Position numbers and translations under genes: made by a program. The notes beneath the pieces were generated by a model. That model ran no database searches, was not told where the DNA came from, and worked only from the letters and a program-made list of their open reading frames with translations. From NCBI GenBank assembly GCA_947453335.1, contig CANGFP010000003.1, forward strand, positions 1-64,000: a DNA stretch of 64,000 nt. The letters run 5' to 3'. This document shows positions 3,270 to 51,943 of the stretch, one piece after another (position 1 is the first letter of the stretch; every line of letters begins with the position of its first letter). The stretch comes from Opitutia bacterium (lineage in GTDB: Bacteria > Verrucomicrobiota > Verrucomicrobiia > Opitutales > UBA953).

Positions 3270-3664
3270 TTATCCGTGGCAATTCTTCAAACCGAGGACC
3301 AGCAGGACGGTGGCGACCAAAAACAGGGCGAATAGGGCGGTTTTCCATCCTTTAGTCTGCTTATCCGAGCTTCCGCGGTGCTCTTTCTTCCGAAAAGCCT
3401 TCCGACCGAGGGAAGTCACATGCTGAACGGTGACGTCAGGATAGGACCGTCCGGAGACTTCCTTAACAACCCCTTTGATCAGTCCTACTTCGATGAGTTC
3501 GACGAAAGCGCGGGCTTTGCGCTCGGCGGGTAGACGGTCGAATGCATTGCATTCGCGGCCCACGATCAGGCGTTCCAACCCTAGTTTGGCATCGGAAGTG
3601 ATGTGTCGGCGACCGGACTGGGATTCTTCTTTGCTCAAGCGGACGTTTACCCAAATGTTGTCAT
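3270..3664 (-). CDS. Winged-helix, tail-anchored hypothetical; likely 1-base defect near start
   Basis: About 122-131 residues. The body (RLPAERKARAFVELIEVGLI ... VTVQHVTSLGRKAF) resembles the small winged-helix proteins of the DUF2513 type, but here it is followed by a hydrophobic C-terminal segment (ALFALFLVATVLLVLGL), so it would be tail-anchored. The in-frame region has no ATG start. An ATG at 3664 sits 1-6 bases downstream of a G-run but reads MTTFG then stop. One extra G in the GGG at 3650-3652 would give MTTFGVNVRLSKEE and join it to the conserved body. Intact alternatives are TTG at 3686 or 3638. Base composition is less GC-rich than the neighbours, consistent with transfer. It is divergent from thiD. 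Function unknown. Confidence 0.55.
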
Positions 3665-3737
3665 CCCCCCGCTTCCATCGGCGCAAATCTTTTCGGGGGC
3701 CAATTGTAAAAATTATCAAATTCCCGGCCCCGCACGC

Positions 3738-4538
3738 ATGAGCCCGCACGCCTCCCCCTCCCTTGGCGACCTCCCGGTCGCCCTCAGCATCGCCGGCTCG
3801 GACAGCGGCGCCGGGGCCGGCATCCAGGCCGACCTCCTGACCTTCGCGGCCAATGGGGTCTACGGCACCACCGCGATCACCTGCCTGACCGCCCAGAACC
3901 CCCGCGGGGTTTCCGGCGTACAGGCCGCGACCCCGGCCTTCGTGGCCGAACAGTGCCGCCAAGTGGCGACGCATTATCGCCCAAAAGCCCTGAAAACAGG
4001 GATGTTGCTGGAGGTCGGCATCGTCGAAGCCGTCGCGGATTTCATCGCGGCAACGAAGATCCCCGCGGTCGTCGATCCGGTCATGGTAGCCTCGAGCGGA
4101 GCCACGTTGCTGTCCGCCGCGGCCGTCGAAGCCGTCCGCCAAAAGCTCCTGCCCTTGGCCGCGGTGGTGACGCCCAACCTCGATGAAGCCGCGATTCTCC
4201 TCGGACGAAAGCCCCTCGGCGGCGACCACTGCGCCGCGGAAGCCGTGGAACTCGCCAGAATCCACCAAGTGCCCATCCTCCTGAAAGGCGGACATGCCGC
4301 CGGGGACGACCTTGTCGATGCTTTGGCTTGGCCTGACGGCCGCGTGGTGACGTTCCTGGCTCGTCGAATCCCCGGGATTGATACCCATGGCAGCGGGTGC
4401 ACCCTCTCGGCAGCCATCACGGCCCAACTGGCCCTCGGCCACCCCCTGGAGGAAGCCGTCCGTCGAGCCCATGCCTACCTTCAATCTGGAATGAACCATT
4501 GTTTGCAAGTCGCTGGCATAAAGCATATTAAGCATTAA
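3738..4538 (+). CDS. thiD: Hydroxymethylpyrimidine/phosphomethylpyrimidine kinase
   Basis: 266 residues. Phosphorylates HMP and then HMP-P to give HMP-PP, the pyrimidine half of thiamine. The ribokinase-fold signature [16 protein letters not shown] opens the protein. DPVMVASSG sits mid-protein, and the C-terminal nucleotide-binding/catalytic [10 protein letters not shown] carries Cys221. The ATG at 3738 was chosen because homologous sequence begins a few residues later; an open frame extends upstream but is unlike the family. No other thiamine gene is nearby. A weak hairpin (GCCTG/CAGGC, 4568-4585) lies downstream. Confidence 0.95.
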
Positions 4539-4796
4539 TTATTGCGAGCCAATACCCCCAGCAGGTGGCCTGCCTAAAAACAGGCAAAACCCTTAGCGGC
4601 CGACCGGAGTTAAGCCCCAAGACGGACCTCCCAGCTCCCGCGGGTTCCGCAGGGGGGGGGGCGAACCAGGGCACACCTAGCATAGACGCCCGGGGCCCGA
4701 GAGAACTCCAGGGGAGTCGGGTTATTCACACTTGCCCCCTTCCCACCCTCTCCTTTTCTAACCCATTCCCTGCGGTCCCGCACCGCACCCCCGCAC

Positions 4797-6593
4797 ATGC
4801 CTAAAAAGAAAGCCGCCCAGTCCTCCTCGACCAAACCCGCCTCCGCCGCGAACGGCGCCAAGATGCGTGGTTGCGACGTCATGGTACGTTGCCTCGAGAA
4901 CCTCGGCGTCGACACCATCTTCGCCTACCCGGGCGGCGCCTCGATGGAGCTGCACCAAGGTCTCACGCGCTCCAAGAAGATCCGCACCATCCTGCCCCGC
5001 CACGAACAAGGCGGCGCCTTCATGGCGCACGGCTACGCCCGCGCCACCGGCAAGCCCGGCGTCTGCATGGCGACCTCCGGCCCCGGCGCGACGAACCTCG
5101 TCACCGCCATCGCCGACGCGCACATGGACAGCATCCCGCTGATCTGCATCACCGGCCAGGTCTACCAGCAGTTCATCGGCCGCGCCGCCTTCCAGGAAAC
5201 CGACTTCTACGGCATGACGCTGCCGATCGTGAAGCATTCCTTCCTCGTCCTCGACTACAACGAGCTGCCGAGCATCATGTACAAGGCGTTCAAGATCGCC
5301 ACCACCGGCCGCCCGGGCCCCGTGGTCATCGACATCCCCAAGGACGTCCAGCAGCACGAGTGGGTCCCGGTCTTCCCGAAGAACGCGGACGACGTCTCCA
5401 TCCCCGGCCTGCAGGTGCCGCCGAAGGCCGCTGACGCCGAGCTCGAACAGGTCCTGCGCCTCATCGAGAAGGCCGCGCAGCCCGTGATCTACATCGGCGG
5501 CGGCATCCTGTCCGGCGACGCCCACAAGGAGCTCCGCGCCTTCGCCGAAGCCACCGGCATCCCGGTCGCCTCCACGCTGATGGGCCTCGGCGCCTTCCCC
5601 TGCGACCATCCGCAGTCCCTCTACTGGTACGGCATGCACGGCACCGTCGCGGGCAACTGGGCCGTCTGCAAGAGCGACCTCCTCATCACCATGGGCGCGC
5701 GCTTCGACGACCGCATCACCGGCGCCGTCGACAAGTTCGCCCCCGACGCGACGATCGTCCACATCGACATCGACCGCTCCGAGCACCAGAAGAACAAGTT
5801 CGCCCACTACCCGATCCACTCGGACATCAAGCACGCCCTGGCCCGCCTCACCACGCTGGCCAAGAAGGGCTTCAGGAAGCCCGACCTGAAGAAGTGGTAC
5901 GCGACCATCAACGGCTGGAAGCACGAGCACCCGTACCCCTTCAGCTACGAACGCAAGACGAAGCACATCCTCCCGCAGGAAGCCGTCGAGACGCTCTACC
6001 AGGAGACCAAGGGCCAGGCCATCGTCGCCACCGGCGTCGGCCAACACCAGATGTGGGCCCCTCAGTACTACCGCTTCAGCGAGCCGCGCCGCTTCGTCAG
6101 CTCCCTCGGCGCCGGCACGATGGGCTTCGGCCTTCCGGCCGCGATCGGCGCCAAGGTCGCCTGCCCGGACAAGCAGGTCATCGACATCGACGGCGACGGT
6201 TCCTTCCTGATGAACATCCAGGAGCTCGCGTGCATGAAGATCGAAAAGATCAACGCGAAGATCCTGCTCCTCAACAACCAGCACCTCGGCATGGTCGTGC
6301 AGTGGGAGGACCGCTTCTACGACGGCGTCCGCGGCCACACCATCCTCGGCGACGCCAAGAACATCGGCAGCCCCGACAACCCGGGCGGCCTGTACCCCGA
6401 CTTCGTCAAGATCGCCAACGGCTTCGGCATCAAGGCCCGCCAGGTCATGAAGCGCGAGGAGCTGCGTGAAGCCATCCGCGAGATGCTCGCGCACGACGGC
6501 CCGTATCTCCTCGACGTCATCGTGCCTTACACCGAGCACGTCCTGCCCTTCATCCCGCAGAAGAAGTCGGCGATGGAGATCCTGACGAAGTAA
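4797..6593 (+). CDS. ilvB: Acetolactate synthase, large (catalytic) subunit
   Basis: 598 residues. ThDP-dependent condensation of two pyruvates (or pyruvate + 2-oxobutyrate), the first common step of branched-chain amino acid synthesis. It has [11 protein letters not shown], the ThDP-activating Glu70 in [11 protein letters not shown], and the metal/ThDP motif GDGS (466-469) continuing to [11 protein letters not shown]. The Lys/Ser-rich N-terminal 20 residues are an unstructured leader. No ilvN-like regulatory subunit follows; the next gene is convergent trxB beyond a terminator. The 258-base upstream gap contains a run of nine or more G and no obvious leader peptide. Confidence 0.95.
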
Positions 6594-41168: not shown

Positions 41169-41701
41169 GCCGAATAGACCGAAGGGAACGCACGCAACAG
41201 TCGCTCGCCGAGACGCCGCGATACCAGTTGGATGCTGCCCGAAGTGCCGTGTCCACGCGCGTTCAGAAGCATCCATGCGGTGGATCCATCACGACCTGCC
41301 GCCCCATCCGTCAGCAGCGTATCGTCGATTTCGAAAAGATCCCCCAGCACGACGGAGGATCCCATCCTGAGCGCGCCGTAACGGATGATGGTCAAACGGC
41401 ACTCCGACATGCGCGCATGATCAACCGTGGCGAGCGCACCGGAAAGACGCAGACAGACCCGGTCCTGGGCGGAAGCCGCGCTCAAGTCGAGCAGTTGCTC
41501 CACCTCGGTGAGCTCATTGGCCGCCTGGACCAAACCCAGACCGGCAGGCAAGGTCACATGCAGAACAGAGCTAGGCCCCAACATCCAAGCCAAGCACCGG
41601 TTGACGCGCCCCTGGTAGGCGGGGGCGAACTGACAGGACCAACGACGAGAAGGCCGGCGCCAACCACGGCGCGACCACATCCCCCTGACGTCGCGCCTCA
41701 T
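41165..41701 (-). CDS. Unknown protein translationally coupled to PEP-CTERM gene
   Basis: 178 residues, not recognised. The ATG overlaps the stop of the PEP-CTERM gene (ATGA), suggesting translational coupling. The first 35 residues are Arg/Trp-rich and unlike the rest. From MLGPSSVLHVTLPAGLGLVQ on it looks like an ordinary alpha/beta protein with repeated hydrophobic strands (CRLTIIRYGALRMGSSVVLG, GSTAWMLLNARG). Codon use is more mixed than in the neighbours. It could instead start at a later Met (Met8 or Met40). Reality is moderately supported by length and overlap only. Confidence 0.5.
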   Translation of the reverse strand: MRRDVRGMWSRRGWRRPSRRWSCQFAPAYQGRVNRCLAWMLGPSSVLHVTLPAGLGLVQAANELTEVEQLLDLSAASAQDRVCLRLSGALATVDHARMSECRLTIIRYGALRMGSSVVLGDLFEIDDTLLTDGAAGRDGSTAWMLLNARGHGTSGSIQLVSRRLGERLLRAFPSVYSA

Positions 41702-42843
41702 GCGCGGCGGACGCCGTGGCGGCGACGCACTACGACCACAACCACCGACAGCAGGCCCAAACCCAACCCATAGGTAGACGGCTCCGGCACGACGGCGGTG
41801 TAGACAAGTTCCAGGGTCTTCGACGTGGTGTTGTTGTTCAGCGTGAAATTCGCGGCATTGACCGGGCCGCCCGAGGCATCCTTGAGGCTCGTCGTATCTA
41901 CGACGTATAGACCGGACAAACTTGTGTTCGTACCAAGGTTCAGGCTTCCGTAGCTCATCAGCGTGAAAGTGGTGTTCTTGGTGGAATCGAAAACGACCGG
42001 GGCGCCCGACAATTGCAGCTGAAGCTTGTTGGCGGAAGTCAGACCCGAGAGATCGACCGCACCTGTGACGTTGAACTTATCGTATCCCACCCCAGCAGCC
42101 TGGGTGGCGTTAGCCATGTTCCAACGCACGCGCGATCCGCCCTGCAGCTGCATGCTGGCAACGGTCATTGCTCCGACTTGGCCGACGTTCAAGAGCCCGA
42201 CCGTGCCGGCGTCGAGACTGCCGTTTGCCAGCACGGTGACGGCCCCGACCGAACCGGTACCAGCCAGAAGGGAGTTTGAGTTCACCGTGACCGGCCCCAC
42301 GATGGATCCGTTGACCTGCAGCACGTTCAGGACAGCGCTCAAACCAGACACACCAGCCTGCAGGACCGTGCCGCCGGCGTAGGTGTTGGCCCCGGTCAGG
42401 ACAAGTTTTCCGGACCCCGTAAGGCTCAAACCCGAGGTGCCGCTGATGACGTTCCCGATCGTCACGCTTGAGGAAGCGCCGGCGACGTTAACCGTGGTCG
42501 GAGCCGATAGCGCAAGACCTGCTCCTTGCAGCACCCAGTTGCCGGTAGCCCCTCCGGTCACACCGAAAGTCAGGCCCGAAATGGACTGCTGGGCGTTGAC
42601 CGTGATCGTATCCGTCGACGCAGGGATGGCCTGGAACTCGGCCACGTTACCTCCGACCCACGGACCCAACGCCGTCCCCGCCGTGGACGTCGCCCACACG
42701 GAGGCATCCCAGGTATTGCTACCCCCCTGCAGGCCTGCCGCCGTGGACGTATCCCAATAGGAAGTCGCGGCGAAGACCGAGGACGCGGAAAGCGCCGCGG
42801 CGCAGGTGAGAAAGGACCGGAAGCATAGGTGCGGGAAGTGCAT
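41698..42843 (-). CDS. PEP-CTERM sorted surface protein with autotransporter-associated strand repeat
   Basis: 381 residues. Signal peptide (about 1-25, ending SSVFA), then Gly/Thr/Ser/Asn-rich beta sequence. One autotransporter-associated repeat GKLVLTGANTYAGGTVLQAG at about 145-165, and a C-terminal PEP-CTERM signal: VPEPSTYGLGLG, hydrophobic LLSVVVVVV and RRRHGVRR. Exosortase would cut at the PEP box and anchor or secrete the protein. No exosortase is in this window. GC is visibly lower than the core genes, consistent with a horizontally mobile or fast-evolving surface gene. Confidence 0.9.
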   Translation of the reverse strand: MHFPHLCFRSFLTCAAALSASSVFAATSYWDTSTAAGLQGGSNTWDASVWATSTAGTALGPWVGGNVAEFQAIPASTDTITVNAQQSISGLTFGVTGGATGNWVLQGAGLALSAPTTVNVAGASSSVTIGNVISGTSGLSLTGSGKLVLTGANTYAGGTVLQAGVSGLSAVLNVLQVNGSIVGPVTVNSNSLLAGTGSVGAVTVLANGSLDAGTVGLLNVGQVGAMTVASMQLQGGSRVRWNMANATQAAGVGYDKFNVTGAVDLSGLTSANKLQLQLSGAPVVFDSTKNTTFTLMSYGSLNLGTNTSLSGLYVVDTTSLKDASGGPVNAANFTLNNNTTSKTLELVYTAVVPEPSTYGLGLGLLSVVVVVVRRRHGVRRA

Positions 42844-42970: not shown

Positions 42971-45580
42971 TCACTCTTCACCCAGCACGAACTCGTCGTC
43001 GCGCCCGCGCGCCTGGCTCCAGCGCGCCAGGCACTCGTCGAGGGGCACGGGCCGCACGTTCTGCTTCAGGTTGTACGCGCCGGCGTCGATGCAGGCCTTG
43101 ATCTGCGTCCAGACGGCGCCGTACGCGCGGCTGAAGCGGAGCGATTCGTCGCGCACGAGGCTGGAGACATGGCAGCAGCCGCCGACTTCCGTGACCATGA
43201 AGCGTCCGGCCTTCAGTTCCTCCTCGCTGGTCGCGCGCAGGTCGAAGCGGCCGAAATGCAGGCCCGGGAATCGCTTCGCGAACGTGGTGACGGCCGCGCT
43301 CAGGGCCGGCGTGTTGAGGTCGTGGCGGTGCACGCACCGGGCGCCGTGGCCGTAGCTGCCCGAGAGGTTGAGGACGACCTTCTCCCCGGCGGCGACGACG
43401 CGGTTGAGGTCGCGGTCGTGGCATTCGAGGTAGAGCTCCCCGCGCGACACGGCCACTTCGTCGAGCCAGATCAGCTCCTCCAGGGTCTGCTCGCCGTCGC
43501 CCATGACGACGACGTCCTGCTTCTGGACGACCACCAGCACGCGGCCGTCGTCCTTGCCGGGGTTGCGGCGCCAGACGACCTCGAACTCCAGCCCTTCGAG
43601 CTTCTTCTGCAGGACGAAATCCTCCTTGGCGCCGGCGACCCAGCGCTCCAGCTGCTCGTCGGTGCGGATGTAGCGCAAGCCGGCTCCGTCCTCGGCCACC
43701 TCAGGCTTGAGCACCAGGGGGAAACCGTGGCAGACGGCGAAGGCCTTGGCCTCCCGGAGGCGTTCCTCGGCCGCATCCTCGACGGACAGGGCCAAGGTCG
43801 GGCAGCACCGCGAATCGCGCTGGAAGGGACGCATGAGCAGCGACTTGGCGTCGCCGATGAAGCCTCCGACCCGACCCAGGGCGGGATTGGCGGAAGCGAA
43901 GGCGGTCAGGCGGCGGTGGCGCAGGCACAACGCGAGGATGCCGACGCGGATGGGCAGGTAGAGGATCCAGGAGGGCCAGAGCGAGGCCTGCAGGAGGTTG
44001 CGGACCTTCATCACGATCTGCCGACGGCCGCGCCAGGTGAGCGCCGGGACGACCCAGTGGGTGACGAAATGCAGGGCGCAGATGAAACCGAGGATGATCC
44101 ACAAGGCCTGGCTCTTGAAGCGGGCGAGAAGCTCCATCCCGTGCGCGCCGAACTTGAACCCGAGGTACATCAGCGGCGGCGTCCAGATCAACGCGGCCAG
44201 GAGCAGCAGACCGCCGAGGCGCGCGATGTTGAGCTTCATGATGCCGGCGGTGACGAACGTCGGCACGCGGCTCGCGGGGATGAAGCGCGAACTGACGACG
44301 ACGAGCAGCCCCTGCGGGGTCGAGAACCAGCCGGCCCACTGGTTCACCTTGCTCTCCTTGATGATCCACTTGAAAGGCGCGCGGGTGATCGCCTGCCGCC
44401 CGAAGAAGCGGCCGAGCGAATACAGCACGATGTCCCCGAGGAAGATGCCGACGGTGCAGGCGCCGGCGGCGGACCAGAAGTCGATGATGCCGACGGCCAC
44501 CATGAGGCCGGAAGCCAGGCAGGTCGGGTCCTCCGCCACGAACGTGCAGACGGTGATGATGAGGAGGAGGATCCAGTAATGCGAACCGGCGGCGGAAGGC
44601 AGCGGCGGGTAGCCTTCCAAGGCGGCGCGCTGGGCCGCCGGCGGTTCGGCGGTGAAGGCGACGACCTGGGCCGCCACCTTGGCCGACTCGGCGAACACCG
44701 CGTCGCGGCCGCCGGGGAGCATCACGAGCTGGGCCTGCGGCACGAGCTGGGCGCTGTAGGTCGCGGCCTGCGCCGGGGTCAGCCAATCATCCTCGCCGTG
44801 GACGATGAGCATGGGCTTGCGCCAGCCGGAGAGGATCTTCTTGGAATCGGAGAGGTCCGTGTCGAAAACGGTCGCGGCGTAGTCGCGGTCCCACGGCAGG
44901 AGGTCCGCCGCGCCGAAGTTCGGCGTCAGCCGCGAGACGCCCCAGAAGAACGCGCCCTGGAAGCCGTAGACGATCTTGTTGACGAGGGGATTGCCCAGCA
45001 GCTCGAACTCCTGCGCGCCCGGCGCGGAGAGCATCGTGAGCGAAAGGACGCGGTCGGGGTGGGCGGACGCGAGCTCCAAGGCCGCCACGCCGCCCAGACC
45101 TTGGCCGACGACGTGGTACTCCTTGACGCCGTGCTGGTCGACGAGCGCGGCGACGACCTCGGCGTTCGCCTCCATCGAATGGCTCGGCACGTTGCCGGGG
45201 GAGGTCGCGAAACCCGGCAGGAAAGGCTCGATGACGGCGACCTTCCCGGTCTTGGCCAGCTCTTCGCAGAAGGCGGTGCCACGGCTGTCCCACGGCGCCC
45301 GGTGCAGGTAGACGAGCACGGGCTTGTTGCCGGCGGAGCGGTTCGAGTCGAACCCGTGCAGGTTCGCGTGCACCGGGATCTTCGCCGGCGTCGGTACGAC
45401 CTTGTCCCCCTTGAAATCGAAGGCCGGCACCATGATCGGGTCGTCCTTGGAGATCCGTTCGATCGCGCTGAAGAACGGGAACAGGGCCGAGAGGACCAGG
45501 AGCCCTAGGTAGACGACGATACCCCACCACCTCCCGGGGACGCGCCCTAGGTTCTTCTTCATCTGTGTCGGGGTCGACAT
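42971..45580 (-). CDS. Fusion: degenerate alpha/beta hydrolase + DedA/VTT membrane domain + ATP-grasp
   Basis: 869 residues. (1) Helix 20-40, then an alpha/beta-hydrolase fold about 85-310. Its nucleophile elbow reads VVGQGLGGVAALE with Gly161 where Ser is required; the acid is present (HGEDDWLTP, Asp265), but the His position reads PGGRDAVF with Arg292. So it looks catalytically dead. (2) About 335-515, DedA/SNARE-associated (VTT) domain: AAGACTVGIFLGDIVLYSLGR, VVVSSRFIPASRVPTFVTAG. (3) About 535-840, linker WPSWILYLPIRVGILALCLR and an ATP-grasp-like ligase domain: PLVLKPEVAEDGAGLR, FGRFDLRA (Asp780), VTEVGG (Glu798). DedA proteins are lipid flippases or scramblases; the fusion suggests a ligase acting on a lipid or envelope substrate. 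MKKNLG at 45562 is an alternative start. Confidence 0.85.
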   Translation of the reverse strand: MSTPTQMKKNLGRVPGRWWGIVVYLGLLVLSALFPFFSAIERISKDDPIMVPAFDFKGDKVVPTPAKIPVHANLHGFDSNRSAGNKPVLVYLHRAPWDSRGTAFCEELAKTGKVAVIEPFLPGFATSPGNVPSHSMEANAEVVAALVDQHGVKEYHVVGQGLGGVAALELASAHPDRVLSLTMLSAPGAQEFELLGNPLVNKIVYGFQGAFFWGVSRLTPNFGAADLLPWDRDYAATVFDTDLSDSKKILSGWRKPMLIVHGEDDWLTPAQAATYSAQLVPQAQLVMLPGGRDAVFAESAKVAAQVVAFTAEPPAAQRAALEGYPPLPSAAGSHYWILLLIITVCTFVAEDPTCLASGLMVAVGIIDFWSAAGACTVGIFLGDIVLYSLGRFFGRQAITRAPFKWIIKESKVNQWAGWFSTPQGLLVVVSSRFIPASRVPTFVTAGIMKLNIARLGGLLLLAALIWTPPLMYLGFKFGAHGMELLARFKSQALWIILGFICALHFVTHWVVPALTWRGRRQIVMKVRNLLQASLWPSWILYLPIRVGILALCLRHRRLTAFASANPALGRVGGFIGDAKSLLMRPFQRDSRCCPTLALSVEDAAEERLREAKAFAVCHGFPLVLKPEVAEDGAGLRYIRTDEQLERWVAGAKEDFVLQKKLEGLEFEVVWRRNPGKDDGRVLVVVQKQDVVVMGDGEQTLEELIWLDEVAVSRGELYLECHDRDLNRVVAAGEKVVLNLSGSYGHGARCVHRHDLNTPALSAAVTTFAKRFPGLHFGRFDLRATSEEELKAGRFMVTEVGGCCHVSSLVRDESLRFSRAYGAVWTQIKACIDAGAYNLKQNVRPVPLDECLARWSQARGRDDEFVLGEE

Positions 45581-50299: not shown

Positions 50300-51943
50300 A
50301 TGCGTCATTTTGCCCTTTTCATCGAAAACGAAGTCCGCGGCCCGCTCAGCGAATACGAGGTCCAGGACCTGATCAACGCCGGCTCGGTCAACGCCGAGAC
50401 GCTCTGCGCCCCCGCCGGCTCGACCGAGTGGGAGCCTCTCTCCAACCATTTCTCGTTCGGCAGCTCGATCAAGCTCGCGAAGAAGGCCGAGAAGAGCGAA
50501 GCCGAAGCCGAGGTCGACGCCAACCGGCTCGACGTCGACGTCCGCCGCAAGCTGCTCATGTACGGGCTGGCCGACTCCGCGACGGTCGACCAGATCTCCA
50601 AGGCCCAAGCCGAGATCGTCCTTGGCGGCCATGAGGCCGACCTGCGGAAGCGCATCGGCCTGCACCGCAACGCCGGCATCGCGGCGTTCTTCGTCGGGCT
50701 CGCGCTCACCGCCTATGTCGGCGCGGCCACCGAGGTCGGCGGCAACCTCCTCGGCAAGGCGGCCGCGAAGTTCGCCAAGGACGACCCGAAGGCCCAGGAC
50801 GGGGTGAAACGCTTCGATTCCGACGTGAAGCACTTCGAGGAGATCCAGGCGCAGGCCCAGGCCGCCACCTTCTTGCGCCCGGCCGGCGGCCAGGCGCTCC
50901 GCCCGATCCTGCTCAACCGCCTCCGCGTCCCCGAGACGCAGGCCTTCAAGGTCTCCGGGGCCGTCGACACCTCCCCGCTCGGCAACCTGCTGACGAAGTG
51001 GAACATCAAGGTCGACGACACGGTCAAGGTCTACGCCCTGCCTGCCGCCATGCCGGCCGACGTCCAGCAGAAGGTCGCCGAACAGGCCGCCGCGCTCGAT
51101 ACGGTGCTGTCCCCGATGCTGGACGAGGCGTCCTTCGAGAAGCTCCGCGCGGACGTCGTCGCGTCCTTCCCCAACGACGCCGCACCCGAGGCCGCCCGGC
51201 TCCGCTCGGAGATGGACCAGCTGAAGCTGGGCGAGCTCAAGACCGCCATCGACCGCGTCGAGTTCCGCTCCCGCGAGGCCGAGAAGTCCGGCAACGGCAA
51301 GTGGGCCGGCGAGCTCCGCGCGTTCACCGGCAAGCTGCGCGACCTGCAGAACCGCATCCGCATCAACGTCGACCCCAACGCCCGCAAGAAGGTCTGGAGC
51401 GAATTCAACGCCGGCCCCGGCGCCGAGCTCGGAGCCTGGGTGCTCGCCTCCAACGCCAAGGAGATCAAGGTCGACCAGAACGGCGCCTTCCTCGTCCCCG
51501 AGATGGGCAAGATCGAACCCGACGCCGCCCCTGCCCGCCTGCTGGTGACGACGCAGATCAACGGCGACACGGTCTACCTGGCCTGGGGCTCCAAGTTCCT
51601 CGCCTGCCGCGACCTGCGCTCCGAGGAGATCCCCAAGGACGCCTTCCTCACCCGCGAACAGTACAAGGTGCTCGACAAGCCGGTCACCGGCAACCGCCGC
51701 CACTTCGTGCGCTACCGCGTCGGCGACAAGGAGATCTTCGCCAACCGTCTCTCGCCGAAGTGGTGCTTCTTCGTGGTCGCCCGCGACAAGGACACCGACC
51801 CGCTCATCGTGATGGTGGACGCCGAGACGCACGCCAAGTTCCCCGTGGGCGGCGTGGTCCCGACCGAGGTGCTCGAGAAGTGCGAGTCGTTCCCGCGGCT
51901 CACGGAATCCCCCGCCCCCGCCCCGCTCCTCGCGGGGGAGTAG
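50300..51943 (+). CDS. GYF_2-domain protein with a membrane segment
   Basis: 547 residues. N-terminal GYF_2/DUF4339-type domain (ALFIENEVRGPLSEYEVQDLI, then GSTEWEPLSNHF), a Lys/Ala-rich charged linker, and a hydrophobic segment (IAAFFVGLALTAYVGAATEVGG). A long helical or coiled segment with LRSEMDQLKLGELKTAIDRV and a C-terminal beta-rich part follow. Divergent from rpoN across 131 bases. Function unknown; GYF domains bind Pro-rich peptides in other systems. Confidence 0.7.
   Translation: MRHFALFIENEVRGPLSEYEVQDLINAGSVNAETLCAPAGSTEWEPLSNHFSFGSSIKLAKKAEKSEAEAEVDANRLDVDVRRKLLMYGLADSATVDQISKAQAEIVLGGHEADLRKRIGLHRNAGIAAFFVGLALTAYVGAATEVGGNLLGKAAAKFAKDDPKAQDGVKRFDSDVKHFEEIQAQAQAATFLRPAGGQALRPILLNRLRVPETQAFKVSGAVDTSPLGNLLTKWNIKVDDTVKVYALPAAMPADVQQKVAEQAAALDTVLSPMLDEASFEKLRADVVASFPNDAAPEAARLRSEMDQLKLGELKTAIDRVEFRSREAEKSGNGKWAGELRAFTGKLRDLQNRIRINVDPNARKKVWSEFNAGPGAELGAWVLASNAKEIKVDQNGAFLVPEMGKIEPDAAPARLLVTTQINGDTVYLAWGSKFLACRDLRSEEIPKDAFLTREQYKVLDKPVTGNRRHFVRYRVGDKEIFANRLSPKWCFFVVARDKDTDPLIVMVDAETHAKFPVGGVVPTEVLEKCESFPRLTESPAPAPLLAGE

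Follow-up and report, generated by a model that had tools for sequence, protein, structure and literature searches.

For most DedA proteins the substrate is, to our knowledge, an open question. DedA/UptA proteins are described to move undecaprenyl phosphate, and fusions of DedA with PAP2 have been reported in a work whose main text leaves ATP-grasp or hydrolase domains unmentioned (PMC9876793). The ATP-grasp ligases of the cyanophycin synthetase (CphA), GshF and RimK-LysX types have in common with the protein analysed here the fold, a VxKPxxGxxGxG loop, a GDGxxTLEEL motif and a Lys/Glu/Asp pocket, while the esterase-type alpha/beta hydrolases, including the membrane-anchored PlaF (6i8w) and ABHD6, share the fold of its N-terminal domain. 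PlaF carries a single N-terminal anchor helix, as does this protein. Finally, ornithine-lipid synthesis by OlsB/OlsA or OlsF is a related system by virtue of its genes, whose likes neighbour intact forms of the fusion in other phyla. A search of part of the openly accessible literature found no published description of the fusion or of DedA proteins combined with ATP-grasp domains, hydrolase fusions or ornithine lipids.

The window, a stretch of 64,000 nucleotides from the Opitutia bacterium contig CANGFP010000003.1, contains an uninterrupted open reading frame of 869 codons on its minus strand, in which a signal-anchor helix, an alpha/beta-hydrolase, a DedA/VTT domain and an ATP-grasp ligase follow each other. 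In comparison with UptA, its DedA domain has a hydrolase on one side and an ATP-grasp domain on the other, and in comparison with the CphA, GshF and RimK-LysX ligases its ATP-grasp domain is membrane-attached. That one chain holds three known folds had been claimed in an earlier note made from the letters alone, and the intact frame together with Pfam, profile and AlphaFold2 evidence bears this out. Since in nearly all sampled genomes of the same genus the homologue is likewise encoded by one open frame of comparable length, a frame error, which that note had named as grounds for dropping its claim, is ruled out, as is an assembly artefact.

Table. Coordinates of the features discussed; positions refer to the window except where a locus handle is given.
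Feature	Position	Strand	Basis or remark
Whole fusion gene, 869 aa	42971..45580	-	Single ORF; full-length homologues in nearly all genus genomes sampled
N-terminal hydrophobic helix, residues 22-40, predicted signal anchor	45461..45517	-	Hydropathy 2.27; four K/R precede
Alpha/beta-hydrolase domain, residues ~45-315, predicted extracytoplasmic	44636..45448	-	Pfam Abhydrolase_1; fold match 4uhd
Gly161 codon, nucleophile Ser position	45098..45100	-	Gly in all f1 members read
Asp265 codon, catalytic acid kept	44786..44788	-	Asp in 43/43 genus members
Arg292 codon, catalytic His position	44705..44707	-	Genus n=43: Arg 33, His 10
DedA/VTT transporter domain, residues ~332-512	44045..44587	-	Pfam VTT_dom; five charged residues intact
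Membrane-proximal segment, residues 515-600	43781..44038	-	Common to stand-alone ATP-grasp relatives, e.g. L039
ATP-grasp domain, residues 601-850	43031..43780	-	Profile and fold matches to CphA/GshF/Ddl
Mg-ligand motif VTEVGGCC (ancestral IELNGVTS)	43172..43195	-	Asn to Gly at 800; new Cys802, Cys803
Loci with recurrent nucleophile loss	L195 6001-8604; L208 5830-8436; L102; L212-L215		
DinB-like and NRDE/TANGO2-like pair loci	L031 4727-6108; L034 7788-9094; L039 2353-3578		

The whole-chain AlphaFold2 model (mean pLDDT 82.9) places the first helix at residues 15-32, and a structure search with it returned hydrolases. Four Lys/Arg residues ahead of this helix predict an N-terminus inside the cell, so that, by the positive-inside rule, the hydrolase would lie outside the cytoplasm; the ATP-grasp domain is expected inside because of its need for ATP. 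Two-domain relatives begin with a similar first helix, which a short loop joins to the DedA domain. The DedA domain itself is found above the curated cut-off of VTT_dom (PF09335; 6.5e-13, 49.7 bits vs 33.9) and shares with the family, UptA included, the conserved Glu/Asp and Arg residues: Glu350, Asp351, Asp383, Arg432 and Arg438 are invariant both in alignment A6, which numbers them one lower, and in the family of the window protein, hereafter f1.

The hydrolase domain matches Abhydrolase_1 above the Pfam cut-off (1.6e-15), and its part of the model aligns with the esterase 4uhd over 241 residues (Z 25, rmsd 2.9). Unlike the esterase-type hydrolases, it has no Ser nucleophile, most of its genus also lacks the His, and its oxyanion HG reads HR. 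The replacements noticed earlier, Gly161 for the Ser and Arg292 for the His with Asp265 kept, are all read as described. Conservation of both Gly161 and Arg292 in orthologues, which the earlier note would have counted in favour of a non-hydrolase role, held in part: the motif of the window protein is GQGLG and the Ser of GxSxG is absent from all f1 members read, whereas Arg292 varies, the catalytic His being retained in 10/43 genus members and in most sister genera. Orthologues with both Ser and His, which the earlier note would have taken as refuting its reading, do exist outside f1; they leave the residue observation correct and show the protein of the window to be derived. The Ser, His and Asp, as well as the Glu and Asn of the ATP-grasp site, are all kept in 20/20 of the order's three-domain proteins that belong neither to f1 nor to the family f4.

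Changes in the hydrolase are also found elsewhere. It has decayed or been lost in families f4, f14, f21 and f47; among 12 loci from other phyla the Ser is present in ten and replaced by Gly in two Fodinibius proteins; and a further sample of other Verrucomicrobiota lineages includes three with a decayed domain and one with Gly in place of the Ser. Nucleophile loss as such recurs outside f1 in Fodinibius, f4, f47 and L215, with E-x-N intact where readable. A rule by which hydrolase loss follows partner loss is unsupported, since hydrolase-less two-domain forms keep NRDE and DinB and since in Fodinibius the Ser is lost and OlsBA is kept. An OlsI-type O-acyltransferase was discarded as the identity of the hydrolase, its match being weak (7.8e-5, below cut-off) and absent from those of intact relatives. 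Separately, three proteins of the gut genus (L093, L094 and L095; frames of 1036-1072 aa) are longer at the N-terminus, with roughly 100-170 additional residues ahead of the hydrolase.

For the ATP-grasp domain a single-sequence search gave a Pfam match to CPSase_L_D2 below cut-off (E 0.036), and the family profile matched solved structures of a glutathione/cyanophycin synthetase (7ta5, 1.9e-7), D-Ala-D-Ala ligase (1.2e-6) and cyanophycin synthetase (5e-6). When the domain was modelled on its own with AlphaFold2 (pLDDT 91.6), Foldseek assigned the model to the ATP-grasp fold (E 5e-11), and it superposed on cyanophycin synthetase 7wae over 258 residues (Z 16.8, rmsd 4.3). The best structural matches were cyanophycin synthetase, LysX/ArgX and GshF, the nearest folds thus being amino-acid and peptide ligases. 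The residues of the putative ATP pocket, Lys625, Lys687, Glu665 and Asp780, with roles assigned by homology (Asp780 as the first Mg ligand), are invariant in f1.

The Mg-ligand site differs. The sequence VTEVGG had been noted as missing the usual Asn after Glu, and indeed Glu798 is kept and the Asn is Gly800. This Asn is present in 36/36 members of the order outside f1 and in 12/12 from other phyla, and E-x-N is intact in the further Verrucomicrobiota sample wherever the region is readable; on the contrary, every f1 member read has Gly, Asp, Lys, Ser or Glu in its place, so that f1 departs from the CphA, GshF and RimK-LysX ligases in lacking the Asn and in having the motif after it replaced. 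Judged from these sequences, the missing Asn is a derived loss. The E-x-N motif is not universal in the superfamily, some ATP-grasp enzymes, for example of the PurT type, being without the Asn, and residual ligase activity is therefore possible. The window genus has also acquired strongly conserved residues in this region, namely Cys592, Cys593, Cys617, His618, Cys720, His745, Cys749, His751, Cys802 and Cys803. About ten Cys/His of the linker and ATP-grasp region (43031-44038, residues 515-850) are mostly absent in relatives.

The protein is present in nearly all genomes of the same genus sampled, and whole-genome searches found it in 79/273 genomes of the order and in 38/388 of the phylum. 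Scanning 84,980 species genomes yielded 406 stretches encoding relatives. Three architectures occur: hydrolase-DedA-ATP-grasp, DedA-ATP-grasp and ATP-grasp alone. Close relatives span about seven other phyla, the closest loci outside Verrucomicrobiota belonging, judged by their names, to Balneolota, Acidobacteriota, KSB1, Rhodothermales, Gemmatimonadota and Planctomycetota as well as to Desulfobacterota together with a related deltaproteobacterium. The window genus consists of freshwater Opitutae genomes, and g22, which like g25 is a sister genus within f1, comes from animal gut. In a tree built by a quick method without the Mg-motif columns, with many open forks outside f1, f1 comes out as a single clade with a long stem (SH-aLRT 100), and the rows used show one change of the Asn and three of the Ser. 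Hydrolase loss is thus recurrent, and ATP-grasp loss is seen only in f1.

In other families of Opitutales the fusion usually comes third, after a DinB-like and then an NRDE/TANGO2-like gene, all on the same strand and a few bases apart, and NRDE is found in 39/45 of their loci. The DinB-like and NRDE/TANGO2-like genes, to neither of which a part in lipid synthesis is assigned, also form a conserved pair directly upstream in some other Verrucomicrobiota. In other phyla, 12/12 sampled loci have OlsA/OlsB-like or OlsF-like genes close to the fusion (OlsF-like in two; OlsA only in L197), with NCBIfam matches for OlsB of 1e-36 to 1e-40, for OlsA of 1e-40 and for OlsF of 1e-110 that are all below equivalog cut-offs and do not give the amino acid. 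At least one partner gene (Ols-, NRDE- or DinB-like) accompanies 8/15 loci of a further, held-out Verrucomicrobiota sample. On the contrary, no such partner was detected in the flanks of f1 loci (0/24), the window gene included, and a profile search found NRDE and DinB-like partners in 0/79 f1 genomes, the same profiles recovering both genes in 9/9 control genomes. Many genomes of the window genus do encode an OlsF-like synthase elsewhere, so that a lipid role in trans is possible; the gene was not found in the window's own genome, which is 63% complete, nor in the g22 gut genomes (0/8), in which the fusion is still kept. Beside a stand-alone ATP-grasp relative, L039 encodes an OlsF-like bifunctional acyltransferase (3571-5349; 1e-110), which also scores with the glycine-lipid GlsB/GlsA models.

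Considering all the above, we judge it somewhat better than an even chance that the window protein is a DedA-type lipid transporter with two retained pseudoenzyme domains serving as binding or regulatory modules, descended from an ancestral aminolipid machine. The ancestral protein, still present in many phyla, would be a one-chain machine for amino-acid-containing membrane lipids that acyltransferases of the OlsB/OlsA or OlsF type produce: in the cytosol, its ATP-grasp domain would couple a further small molecule to the carboxyl or amine of the lipid, its DedA domain would move the product across the membrane, and its hydrolase, outside the cytoplasm, would cut off or pass on an acyl or ester group. 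In f1, comprising freshwater and gut Opitutales, the looked-for partners are gone from the neighbourhood, and the hydrolase has lost its nucleophile and the ATP-grasp domain a magnesium ligand, with the protein kept; this presumably left a pseudo-ligase that binds ATP on the inner side and a pseudo-hydrolase that binds a ligand on the outer side. The architecture, the losses of residues and partners and the purifying selection are thus established by the sequences, and the lipid substrate, transport, topology and regulation are inferred from them. The earlier suggestion of a membrane ligase modifying a lipid or envelope polymer accordingly finds strong support in its lipid part for the relatives, with their Ols-like neighbours, and is weaker in its ligase part for this organism, because the Mg-ligand position is altered and the looked-for partners are absent from the flanks. 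A wider proposal, which we advance tentatively as possible rather than probable, is that a widespread and so far unrecorded lipid machine combines ligase, translocase and hydrolase, and that in one family both enzymes turned into sensors, of nucleotide inside and of lipid outside, gating DedA.

Purifying selection acts on all domains of the protein. In f1 clusters pN/pS amounts to 0.04-0.36 in every domain, so the altered domains are maintained and a plain pseudogene is ruled out. The same values, far below 1 in both enzyme domains, also weigh against these domains being relics on their way to loss, kept merely in frame with a needed DedA domain. Such decay would agree with the state of the hydrolase in the four families mentioned, and with DedA being conserved best (0.53 vs 0.36 for the enzyme domains) when the genus is compared with its sister genera, but nearly all members are without stop codons or truncation and the genus has gained new conserved residues; we regard it as very improbable. 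Within the window genus, moreover, conservation among the three large domains is highest in the ATP-grasp domain (75% mean identity), and together with the preceding segment (residues 515-600, 81%) this domain is more conserved than DedA.

This slow evolution (pN/pS 0.07-0.16 in genus clusters) and the new conservation could mean a changed chemistry rather than none. The ATP-grasp domain would then still be an enzyme, its site rebuilt with the new Cys/His, perhaps for another metal or a thioester, ligating something to a lipid, and the retained nucleotide-pocket residues are in keeping with it, as are His745, Cys749, His751, Cys802 and Cys803, each of which the genus conserves at 90% or more and relatives mostly lack. 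Nonetheless, most of the new Cys/His are absent from the sister genera, and Glu798 is also gone in three genus members, g22 and g25 having neither Glu798 nor Asn800, which indicates that the Mg site tolerates loss across f1; a rebuilt enzyme thus appears rather unlikely, although it is the chief alternative to the preferred reading. The fusion might otherwise serve envelope polymer or undecaprenyl-phosphate traffic in the manner of UptA, the aminolipid neighbours being incidental. The known substrate of UptA and the wall-peptide ligases among the nearest ATP-grasp folds lend themselves to this role, and the DedA part does match the UptA model NF052604 (9e-13 for the window, 5e-20 for L196), but the window score of 48.7 bits is far below the equivalog cut-off of 250, and incidental neighbours fit poorly with Ols-like genes at every locus sampled in other phyla; we hold it improbable.

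With respect to the preferred reading, a DedA-type transporter with two pseudoenzyme domains, the occurrence of its relatives in aminolipid operons provides a directly testable candidate for a DedA substrate, and the order of the fusion suggests a way of coupling modification to flipping and processing. Moreover, f1, which retained the protein while both its active sites changed, offers a natural experiment on enzymes becoming regulatory domains. As for other genes of the window, a protein that combines a passenger-associated-transport repeat with a weak PEP-CTERM motif adjoins the fusion (41698-42843), and at 50300-51943 a 547-residue protein carries an N-terminal GYF_2 domain, its remainder being without Pfam match.
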